A stretch of DNA of 6,027 bases from an uncultured Fidelibacterota bacterium (GTDB taxonomy: Bacteria; Marinisomatota; Marinisomatia; Marinisomatales; UBA1611). The stretch lies in contig CAJWPW010000080.1 of assembly GCA_913045415.1 (NCBI GenBank), positions 1-6,027 on the forward strand, written 5' to 3'. Position numbers and translations under genes: made by a program. Shown in pieces: positions 2,279-4,179 of the stretch; position 1 is the first letter of the stretch, and each line of letters begins with the position of its first letter. Under the pieces are notes generated by a model. It saw only the letters and a list, made by a program, of their open reading frames with translations. It was not told the origin of the DNA and searched no databases.

Positions 2279-3793
2279 ATGATAAATCGATTTAGTATTT
2301 TATTCTTTATTTTTCAGATCATCTATGCAAATGATTTTGCCCAGAGTACATTAGTTTCAGGGGAAGTAACCAACCATAATCTTTACCCTGAAATGGCCGT
2401 AACGGATTCAGGAAAAATTTATATAGTCTGGGTTAATACACAAGGTGGCGGCGATGTTCATTTCACCATGTCTATTGACCACGGACAAACTTTTACCAAT
2501 TTTTCAACAGTAAATCAGGTTGAGAATCATGCAATAACTATTGGGTTCAGCGGGCCGCAAATAGAAGTATGGCGCGATACAATCCATGTCATTTGGTCAG
2601 ATCAACGGAATGGGTATGATCATTCAACAATCTATTATGCCCGGTCTATCGATCAGGGACTGACGTGGGAAGAAATGCGGATTGGTTATCCCAATGGTGT
2701 CAATTTTTACCCTGAACTATTAATTGATTCACAAGGAATTTTGCATGCGTCCTTCCATTATTATTCACCGGGGTCGTTTGCCTACCAATACATCGCCCAT
2801 ACGTATTCCTCTGATGGAGGAGAATCGTGGTCGAATTTTAACATCGTTAGCGATTATGAATCTGGGGAGCCTTGCGATTGTTGCCCCGTAGAACTCCACG
2901 AAATGCCAGATGGAAAGATCATAAATGGATTTAGGAATAATGAGAATGATATTCGAGATATGTTTTCAATGGATTGGCATCCCGAAGACTCATCATGGAT
3001 CAATTTATCTCCCATGTCTTACGATGATTATTTTGTGAATTACTGCCCTACAAGCGGCCCCAGTCTTGTCAGTCGGGATTCTACAGTAGCTATGGCTTAT
3101 ATGTCGGAAACAAATAGCGAAAACCGAATTTTTCTTACTCTATCCCATGACTTGGGGGATACTTTCTCAGTCAGGATCCCAATGGAATTGACCAGCGGCG
3201 TTAATTATCATCAAAACCATCCTTCAGCCGTAATGACCCAAGATGGCAATATCCATGTGATTTGGGAAGACAGTAGAAATTTTGGCAATATTCTTTATAG
3301 TGTTCTTGAATTGGGGCACAGTTTCATGACTGGTTTTTCAACAGTAAATGACAGCATTACATCATCCCCGGAGATTGCACCCCAGTTAGCATCAGATTCA
3401 GACGATCATCTTTATGCAGTTTGGGTAGATCGTCGTTCTGGAAGACAGATAAGATTTTCAACGACATTTCCATTGGATCTTTCAATTGATAAAGAAATGA
3501 TCCCTGTATCTTTTTCACTATCTCAGCCCTACCCAAATCCTTTTAATTCCACAACGACCATTCGGTTTTCAGTAAAGACACGGCACGGTTTCCGAGCGGA
3601 GTCGATGAATGCCGTGTCTCTACGAATATTTGATATTCATGGCAGTTTAGTGGCTTCGTTGATTGATGGATTTGTACACAAAGGAACGCACGAAATTCAG
3701 TGGAATGCATCGACTCAATCTAGTGGGATTTATTTTATTGCTCTACAGGCTCAGGGTTATACACAAACAGTTAAATCTATTTACTTAAAATGA
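2279..3793 (+). CDS. Secreted Asp-box (BNR/sialidase-like) beta-propeller with T9SS sorting domain
   Basis: A 504-aa exported protein. Residues 1 to about 17 form a signal peptide (hydrophobic core SILFFIFQII, likely cut after YA). Four Asp boxes (SxDxGxTW/F type) mark a beta-propeller: SIDHGQTF 65-72, SIDQGLTW 123-130, SSDGGESW 177-184 and SHDLGDTF 289-296. Between them sits CDCCP (199-203), followed by 'FRNNENDIRD' (218-227). I recall this CxCC plus 'RNN..DIRD' pattern from exo-alpha-sialidase-like propellers of unknown activity. Residues from about 412 to 504 are a type IX secretion C-terminal sorting domain (QPYPNPFNSTTTIRFS, then 'SLRIFDIHG', 'SSGIYFIALQA', end SIYLK). The protein should be moved to the cell surface or released. 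Sialidase catalytic residues are not evident, so it may bind glycans or proteins rather than cut. A palindromic repeat is inserted in frame in the sorting domain (residues 432-449). No Shine-Dalgarno site precedes the ATG. Confidence 0.88.
   Translation: MINRFSILFFIFQIIYANDFAQSTLVSGEVTNHNLYPEMAVTDSGKIYIVWVNTQGGGDVHFTMSIDHGQTFTNFSTVNQVENHAITIGFSGPQIEVWRDTIHVIWSDQRNGYDHSTIYYARSIDQGLTWEEMRIGYPNGVNFYPELLIDSQGILHASFHYYSPGSFAYQYIAHTYSSDGGESWSNFNIVSDYESGEPCDCCPVELHEMPDGKIINGFRNNENDIRDMFSMDWHPEDSSWINLSPMSYDDYFVNYCPTSGPSLVSRDSTVAMAYMSETNSENRIFLTLSHDLGDTFSVRIPMELTSGVNYHQNHPSAVMTQDGNIHVIWEDSRNFGNILYSVLELGHSFMTGFSTVNDSITSSPEIAPQLASDSDDHLYAVWVDRRSGRQIRFSTTFPLDLSIDKEMIPVSFSLSQPYPNPFNSTTTIRFSVKTRHGFRAESMNAVSLRIFDIHGSLVASLIDGFVHKGTHEIQWNASTQSSGIYFIALQAQGYTQTVKSIYLK
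3572..3623. repeat. 52-bp palindromic (REP/MITE-like) element inside the sorting-domain coding sequence
   Basis: GTAAAGACACGGCA (3572-3585) and TGCCGTGTCTCTAC (3610-3623) are 14-bp inverted repeats with a single mismatch (3575 against 3620); the inner 10 bp are perfect. The 24-bp centre contains a second imperfect stem: TTC 3590-3592 with GAA 3607-3609, and CGA 3593-3595 with TCG 3602-3604. The outer arms match, from memory, a repeat of form GTAGAGACACGGCA/TGCCGTGTCTCTAC found in several bacterial phyla. The centre (TTTCCGAGCGGAGTCGATGAA) resembles the 'TTCCGAGCGGAGTCGA' repeat common between genes in Bacteroidetes-type genomes. It is GC-rich relative to its surroundings. It is translated as VKTRHGFRAESMNAVSLR (residues 432-449) without a stop. 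There is no other copy in the window. Confidence 0.8.
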
Positions 3794-3867: not shown

Positions 3868-4179
3868 ATGAATCGTTTAACAGTAGGAATTCTTCTATCT
3901 TTTACAGTTATTTTATCTGTGACTGCCTTGAATTATACACCAGATCCACTTTCTAGTAGCTCCAATTGTCAATATAAATCTGCCTGTGGCTCTAGTTGCG
4001 CCAAACTTTGTTGTGCACAAAAAGCCAAAGCCTGTGGCTCTAATTGCACCAAACCTTGTTGTGCACAAAAAGCCAAAGCATGTGGTCTTGATTGCACCAA
4101 ACCATGTTGTGTGCAAAAGGCCAAAGCATGTGGCCCTGATTGCACCAAACCATGTTGTGCGGAGAAGAAAGGAATCTGA
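3868..4179 (+). CDS. Secreted cysteine-rich tandem-repeat protein (CX3CX3CC x4)
   Basis: A 103-aa protein that I do not recognise as a named family. Residues 1-20 are a clear signal peptide (NRLTVGILLSFTVILSVTA), with no lipobox cysteine at the likely cut. A short Ser/Pro linker (about 21-38, with one Cys at 34) follows, and then four 16-residue repeats at 39-54, 55-70, 71-86 and 87-102 of form ACGxxCTKPCCAQKAK. Each repeat has the cysteine pattern CX3CX3CC, giving 17 cysteines in all, with lysines between. No histidine or aromatic residue lies in the repeats. Such density suggests thiolate metal binding (metallothionein-like) or a disulphide-stapled rod outside the cytoplasm; both are inference. 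The stop is only 5 nt before the next start, so it is probably cotranscribed with the DUF1028 gene. The ATG is supported by AAAAGGA 7 nt upstream. Confidence 0.85.
   Translation: MNRLTVGILLSFTVILSVTALNYTPDPLSSSSNCQYKSACGSSCAKLCCAQKAKACGSNCTKPCCAQKAKACGLDCTKPCCVQKAKACGPDCTKPCCAEKKGI
3982..4173 (+). repeat. Four 48-bp tandem coding repeats
   Basis: Units lie at 3982-4029, 4030-4077, 4078-4125 and 4126-4173, each 48 bp (16 codons). Units 1 and 2 differ at only 3 of 48 positions. Unit 3 carries more changes, and unit 4 diverges in its last 12 bases, where the gene ends. The 48-bp period is a multiple of three, so copies can be gained or lost without a frameshift. The close match of units 1 and 2 points to a recent duplication. 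Confidence 0.9.
4168..4173 (+). promoter_or_regulatory. Ribosome binding site selecting the ATG at 4185
   Basis: AAAGGA lies 11 nt before ATG 4185-4187, in a purine-rich stretch (GGAGAAGAAAGGA) that is also the end of the cysteine-rich gene. It favours 4185 over an in-frame ATG at 4140, which would sit inside the repeats and put 15 extra residues before the signal peptide. Confidence 0.55.

Follow-up and report, generated by a model that had tools for sequence, protein, structure and literature searches.

A composite REP palindrome in frame in the first hairpin turn of a T9SS sorting domain, a probable resident slot for REP hairpins in Neomarinimicrobiota

Main finding

The palindrome of 52 bp at positions 3572-3623 of the window (the whole stretch of 6,027 nucleotides analyzed here) probably occupies a resident slot in which REP hairpins are carried in frame and turned over, with a second REP nested inside the first in the lineage of the window. 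We give this reading a probability of roughly 0.7. The observations behind it are the position and frame of the element, its near length-neutrality, its presence in paralogous T9SS sorting domains (CTDs), comparable slots in carB and in RAYT-like genes, the occupation of these slots by at least two REP families, and arms that covary. The features of the window are the following:

2279..3793, + strand: host gene, encoding a 504-aa BNR-repeat protein with a C-terminal T9SS sorting domain (ORF, PF13088, PF18962, TIGR04183)
3530..3778, + strand: T9SS type A sorting domain (CTD), residues 418-500 (PF18962, 37.5 bits)
3572..3623, no strand assigned: composite palindromic element, in-frame residues 432-449 (arm pairing, folding, ORF)
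3572..3585, + strand: left arm, GTAAAGACACGGCA, of a putative double-foot GTAG-type REP, 5' foot mutated to GTAA (arm pairing, family search)
3586..3609, + strand: 24-nt centre, which lengthens the loop by 8 residues (37 versus 29 residues; centre deduced from protein sequence in P0002 and P0019)
3590..3611, + strand: stretch with 21/22 identity to TTCCGAGCGGAGTCGAAGAATG, a CGTC-tagged repeat at locus L370 (sequence comparison)
3610..3623, + strand: right arm, TGCCGTGTCTCTAC, 3' foot CTAC intact (arm pairing, family search)

The host gene and its palindrome

The host gene stays open across the palindrome, and profiles of the Por_Secre_tail type score above their curated cut-offs at the C terminus of the protein (37.5 bits against 27 for PF18962, 28 bits against 23 for TIGR04183), which places the domain in type A. 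The closest named relatives of the protein are Candidatus Marinimicrobia proteins, and the best full-length matches to the gene lie in Neomarinimicrobiota genomes. In an AlphaFold2 model with a mean pLDDT of 83.9, residues 432-449 span the turn between the strands 425-432 and 443-452, and the pLDDT falls below 50 at residues 436-440 within this turn. Downstream of the host gene, a small ORF at 3868-4179 encodes four similar cysteine-rich repeats (ACG..C.K.CC..K) after a segment that resembles a signal peptide by eye; no Pfam or NCBIfam profile matched it.

The two arms of the palindrome form 13 of 14 pairs and stand 24 nt apart. Folded as single-stranded DNA, the region 3565-3630 reaches -14.6 kcal/mol compared with -6.8 ± 2.2 kcal/mol for shuffled sequences (n = 200, z = -3.5), only one of the 200 shuffles folding as well. 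A previous sequence-only reading had described a 52-bp palindrome with 14-bp arms and a single mismatch, lying inside a coding sequence, translated without a stop and located in an exposed hairpin turn, and the pairing, the ORF and the model agree with it on each of these points. A palindrome formed by chance was ruled out by the folding relative to shuffles, by the occurrence of the family in other genomes and by the census of CTDs with its control region (see below). A second inverted repeat of 15 nt (3599-3613 and 3702-3716, 87% identity), which would pair the centre of the element with a stretch 88 nt downstream, is probably due to chance.

A double-foot REP family that lies mostly at one loop of the sorting domain in near genomes

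To define the family, 245 Neomarinimicrobiota genomes were searched for the ends GTAGAGAC and GTCTCTAC separated by 8-38 nt. We found 283 copies in 51 of the 245 genomes, compared with 6/245 genomes for the pattern read backwards, and seven further copies in G010. The latter is a Stygiobacter genome, which we take to belong to the Ignavibacteria. The outer bases are fixed by the search pattern and the inner arms vary; the feet are part of the pattern. Double-foot REPs carry a 5' GT[AG]G and a 3' C[TC]AC foot and are linked to RAYT subclass 2.4 in the accessible part of PMC6006769. The window copy has the intact 3' foot CTAC, while its 5' foot differs by one mutation. Judged by its sequence, the outer 28 bp of the window element appears to be a double-foot GTAG-type REP of the GTAGAGAC...GTCTCTAC family. 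The proposals that the arms match a widespread repeat and that a REP-like palindrome would have further copies in related genomes have held.

Six near genomes (G133, G132, G001, G135, G136 and G119) were selected by their match to the host gene; they hold ranks 1-5 and 8, and ranks 6 and 7 (G117 and G084), which lack an exact copy, were excluded. In this set, a search for the 28-bp form that allowed up to two mismatches in the ends gave 29 copies, compared with 3 for the reversed control. All 29 loci were translated in the analysis: 26 copies lie in CTDs, two in carB and one in a RAYT-like gene. CTDs number 51-95 per genome in the six genomes and make up approximately 0.8% of the near-genome DNA. 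All 26 CTD copies are in the same frame and at one loop, where they mostly read V-E-T-x4-S-L, and the five exact copies of greater length, 49 or 52 bp, that these genomes hold are likewise all in CTDs. Entry into a secretion signal domain, which had been called unusual, is therefore the common case in these genomes, and a one-off insertion was ruled out by the many CTD copies. REPs are extragenic by name and definition, whereas none of the 29 near-genome copies is intergenic.

A wider survey of exact copies covered 147 distinct matches (two of which overlap in L100) of the 290 counted, that is, 283 in the phylum and seven in G010. Thirty-two of the 147 lie in CTDs and 12 in RAYT-like genes. 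Another 11 are within different frames of at least 150 residues (two of them carB), and the remaining 92 are in none, meaning that no open frame of at least 150 residues runs through the copy, some of the loci being short. In G103, most of the fetched copies are outside long frames. The intragenic habit is thus strong near the window and weak elsewhere, since 0/29 copies are intergenic nearby and 92/147 are without a long frame overall.

The 32 exact CTD copies (29 from Neomarinimicrobiota, three from G010) were assigned with a CTD profile built from 95 CTDs of G135, element-bearing ones included; the same profile served to assign the near-genome copies and those of the GTAGGG family (see below). 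All 32 start with V-E-T in one frame and 31 end with S-L, the exception being the 29-nt copy of L081. Thirty are in the first loop of the domain and two, from G010, in a second one; these two (L090 and L092, at 1501-1528 in both) belong to the same family, are in the same frame and lie just before the SGVY of the CTD. Other palindrome-like repeats, e.g., CCCCTCTTGAGAGGGG..., are seen in the same first loop in loci from Ignavibacteria and others (L020 at 2467 on the minus strand, L016 at 3028 and 4464, L021 at 1683, L009 at 6984), suggesting that this loop may be a general landing site. A further palindrome type, TTAGAGGCGAGGCATGCCTCGCTCCTAC, fills the CTD loop of L150 (contig C6 of G119).

Loop length and orthologues

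The loop of the window CTD, counted from PNP through the Gly of D..G, has 37 residues. In G135, where the length was obtained for all but two of the 95 CTDs, 69 of 79 CTDs without an element have 29 residues, all ten plain 28-bp copies give loops of 30-32 residues, which corresponds to an increase of 1 to 3, and the four composite copies have 38 or 39. The estimate of the sequence-only reading, a loop about 8 residues longer than usual, was accurate; a simple insertion of the whole 52 bp is not supported, as the 28-bp form hardly changes the loop length and the increase comes from the 24-bp centre. Being nearly length-neutral, the 28-bp form stands in place of a native turn, and the centre, equal to eight codons, accounts for the eight extra residues of the window loop.

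The closest orthologue, P0001 (93% identity), is without the element, and the next, P0002 (79%), has it. P0001 was rejected as a clean empty site because its loop of 32 residues matches neither the usual length of 29 nor that of the composite, 37. In the G133 orthologue (63%), GTAGAGA...TCTCTAA extends over 28 nt at the same place and resembles a decayed copy; some orthologue copies look decayed. The CTD copies hardly differ at their right border (S-L-[RQH]); the left border is variable. No target duplication was definable, since the left junctions vary and a clean empty site is lacking at the DNA level.

Census of the CTDs of G135 and probable turnover of CTD hairpins

The genome of G135 has 95 PF18962 matches, and 14 of these CTDs bear a recognizable element (chosen by eye from stem and motif); its exact copies are all in CTDs (8/8). 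A stem score of at least 10 was reached by the first loop of 10/95 domains, compared with 0/95 for the 96 nt that follow it in each domain. Nine of the ten stems are REPs, the remaining one (C39:59584) is not. With a score of at least 8, the numbers were 25 first loops and four downstream control regions.

In a set of 26 plain CTD copies, which have 15 distinct left inner arms, 127 of the 156 positions of the six inner pairs remain paired, compared with 65.1 expected from shuffled right arms, and none of 5000 shuffles reached 127 pairs. The identity of the arms is weakly correlated with the identity of the flanks (rho 0.13, p 0.03; 253 pairs from 23 copies). Two G135 CTDs with flanks that are 83% alike carry perfect palindromes of very different sequence. 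Copies with the same palindrome occur on flanks only 49-68% alike, with the exception of L082 and L085 in G005, where an identical palindrome with identical flanks represents a plain duplicate. The right flanks of element-bearing G135 CTDs share 65% identity at the DNA level, compared with 46% among 74 others; for this comparison, the 14 CTDs were selected by a regular expression and differ slightly from the 14 chosen by eye. The greater likeness of the flanks indicates that shared descent of CTDs plays a part.

Slots in carB and in RAYT-like genes

carB is a metabolic gene, which is single-copy in most of the genomes listed, and it provides a check on the slot that does not depend on the CTDs. 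Of the 178 genomes in which carB was matched, we examined the 30 best. Between IDPWFL and LK.NGF, 6/30 orthologues have a stem of at least 9, compared with 0/300 control windows. Five of the six stems are REP hairpins, the stem of G136 (score 9) is not. Hairpins of the GTAGAGAC type are found in this slot in G132, G135, G102 and G103, and hairpins of the GTAGGG type in G091 and G096, while the slot of G002 resembles a composite that has decayed. The same slot can also hold a plain loop of equal length, e.g., VETKNDSEL or VDQQNGSSL. In two carB pairs, 27 of the 28 slot bases are identical, with no synonymous change in the slot codons for unchanged residues, compared with 34% and 48% of such codons differing upstream. 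The carB slot loci of the near genomes are L116, L296, L305, L310 and L379-L408.

GTAGGG...CCCTAC represents a second REP family in the slots. Seventeen distinct copies (16 of the 18 counted and one in L328) include four in CTD first loops, two in carB, two in RAYT-like genes (by eye) and nine elsewhere. In L415 and L417, GTAGGG-type REPs are in frame in RAYT-like genes just before a WQR...EH(I/V) motif, which is a different place.

RAYT-like genes had been suggested as something to look for, and they are present in related genomes, where some of them contain the same REP. In relatives of the window, 12 exact copies are located in RAYT-like ORFs with the motif MPNH[VIFL]H and do not break the frame. 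NF047646 matched the six RAYT-like genes scanned with E values of 1e-15 to 4e-19, below its 80-bit cut-off, and PF01797 gave E <0.001 in 6/9. Two frames are open through such a palindrome, and the RAYT-like genes take the one not used in CTDs in 8/12 cases. A second copy nearby was found at 1/12 REP-containing RAYT-like loci (L368), and a double-foot palindrome (GTAG...CTAC with at least 10 paired bases) flanked the Y1_Tnp gene at 0/20 loci. Y1_Tnp was detected in 38/51 genomes with the palindrome and in 56/194 others, counts that are uncorrected for kinship; none was detected in G135 at E ≤ 0.001, despite eight exact copies.

A putative CGTC-type centre

The centre of the window element had been assigned to a repeat family and the whole taken as a possible composite of two families. 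Both ideas are supported by a 22-nt stretch that matches TTCCGAGCGGAGTCGAAGAATG of L370 at 21 positions, which gives the element a GTAG-type outer part and a putative CGTC-type centre. In L370, this repeat is preceded by CGTC, whereas the corresponding tag in the window reads CGGT. A search of the 245 genomes of the phylum with the CGTC-tagged centre motif gave nine hits in six genomes (reversed control, 2) and none in the near genomes. At the protein level, the same composite is encoded by P0002 and by P0019 (79% and 84% identity to the window protein), and it therefore predates the divergence of these proteins. Centres of composites are seen repeatedly, both in different genes and outside genes.

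Proposed origin and alternative explanations

According to our preferred reading, the outer 28-bp GTAG REP would sit in a resident slot, the first β-hairpin turn of the CTD, where the frame GTA GAG AC. ... TCT CTA C (V-E-T-x4-S-L) is open and S-L fits the second strand. A REP may first have taken the place of the native turn, a step that native codons such as TCTCTAC perhaps made easier. The slot would then have been refreshed by exchange of one REP for another, either through cleavage or recombination by a RAYT or through gene conversion, and correction of the arms in place would offer a second route. Hairpins of the same length would be retained since the domain stays exportable, and unprotected intergenic copies may have been lost in the near genomes. 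In the lineage of the window, a CGTC-type REP of 24 nt, a multiple of three, would have come to lie in the centre of the first and extended the loop by eight residues. E. coli TnpA-REP is reported to cleave and recombine single-stranded REPs in vitro, and the GTAG motif to take part, in one system, in the choice of the cleavage site (accessible part of PMC8266576), which makes an exchange of hairpin for hairpin plausible here. We infer such an exchange from the sequences, and correction of the arms in place could yield the same covariation. Gene conversion among CTDs and in-place correction are the main rivals and may contribute.

The former would mean that a single CTD acquired the palindrome, which then spread as a passenger of CTD duplication or gene conversion, with no recent mobility of the REP itself. 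We consider this unlikely. Although the more similar right flanks of element-bearing CTDs in G135 and the position of 30/32 exact CTD copies at the same loop, all in one frame, are what such a spread predicts, comparable slots are occupied in carB and RAYT-like genes, the arms are nearly uncorrelated with the flanks, identical palindromes sit on poorly matching flanks, and the different family GTAGGG...CCCTAC is found in the same CTD loop. Somewhat less likely still is that templated (quasipalindrome) correction of native codons (V-E-x...S-L) makes and maintains the hairpins, their likeness to intergenic REPs being secondary. The near length-neutrality of the 28-bp form, the related arm types GTTGCA, GTTACA and GTTTCA, and the plain carB loops of equal length, be they native or decayed, are consistent with this idea; the eight outer bases, however, are those of copies outside long frames in the same phylum (e.g., in G103, G032 and G033) and of G010, and the recurrence of composite centres in different genes and outside genes also argues against it.

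Random insertion of REPs, with selection leaving the tolerated sites and neither slot nor targeting, appears improbable. Intragenic REPs are reported from many unrelated genes in the accessible part of PMC3733652, and in-frame copies are found here in carB and RAYT-like genes, but random insertion predicts mostly intergenic copies, which the six near genomes do not have, as well as loops at least 9 residues longer than usual, compared with the increase of 1 to 3 residues that the plain form shows. It is very improbable that the hairpin is kept for a function in RNA or DNA near the 3' end of genes for secreted proteins, such as pausing, mRNA stability or a binding site. The persistence of perfect stems in coding DNA and the lack of synonymous change in the slot of the two carB pairs would fit such a function; yet only 14/95 CTDs of G135 bear an element, many are apparently decayed, unrelated genes share the hairpin, and the window has no Rfam match at gathering thresholds.

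Extending the resident-slot reading, we tentatively suggest that CTDs and CarB could serve as standing cassettes for the exchange, nesting and correction of REP hairpins, by which mobile DNA would repeatedly rewrite the same protein turn and might promote recombination among dozens of CTDs; we regard this wider view as possible, with the odds somewhat against it. In some genomes, the REP family is found only within coding sequence and chiefly at one loop of a secretion signal. This offers a countable natural system in which to study how protein sequence is written by short mobile DNA, why one fold and one frame are used, and whether hairpins are exchanged in place by RAYTs. The slot also explains the VET....SL peptide that recurs in CTDs of uncultured marine bacteria and could mislead motif searches.

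Comparison with known systems

REPs, RAYTs, intragenic REPs (PMC3733652) and REPs in frame within RAYT genes (PMC6006769) are already known from the accessible parts of these papers. Among the matches listed in a search of the open-licence literature, we found no account of a REP slot in a T9SS CTD or in carB; the matches listed for the letters of the arms as a query were all on unrelated subjects by title. An example from a CTD or carB may be contained in Additional file 3 of PMC3733652, which lists intragenic REPs. The accessible parts of the papers on Caldithrix abyssi (PMC5317091) and on RepRanger (PMC12306157) deal with other REPs and describe no such slot.

As far as the accessible parts of the sources go, the closest counterparts are the double-foot REPs of RAYT subclass 2.4 (Bertels group 4), which resemble the window family in the 5' GT[AG]G and 3' C[TC]AC feet and in their long hairpin, and which also occur in frame inside the transposase gene (PMC6006769). 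In contrast to these, the commonest home of the family in the six near genomes is the CTD, followed by carB, with no intergenic copies, and the window element has a 24-nt CGTC-type repeat nested at its centre. The GTAG and CGTC superfamilies described in PMC3733652 are likewise tagged palindromes with intragenic copies in several species; recB of X. campestris and X. oryzae, for instance, carries a REP at about the same site. Those REPs are mainly intergenic or in unrelated genes, whereas here one domain family, one loop and one frame are involved, and both superfamilies are joined in one element. Rickettsia palindromic elements (RPEs), which are compared there to the second superfamily, the CGTC-tagged REPs, are palindromes translated in frame within functional proteins, as is the case here, and their CGTC tag is related to the centre of the window element (PMC3733652). 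RPEs, however, are found in many different genes, while the outer element of the window is of the GTAG type and bound to a single structural slot.
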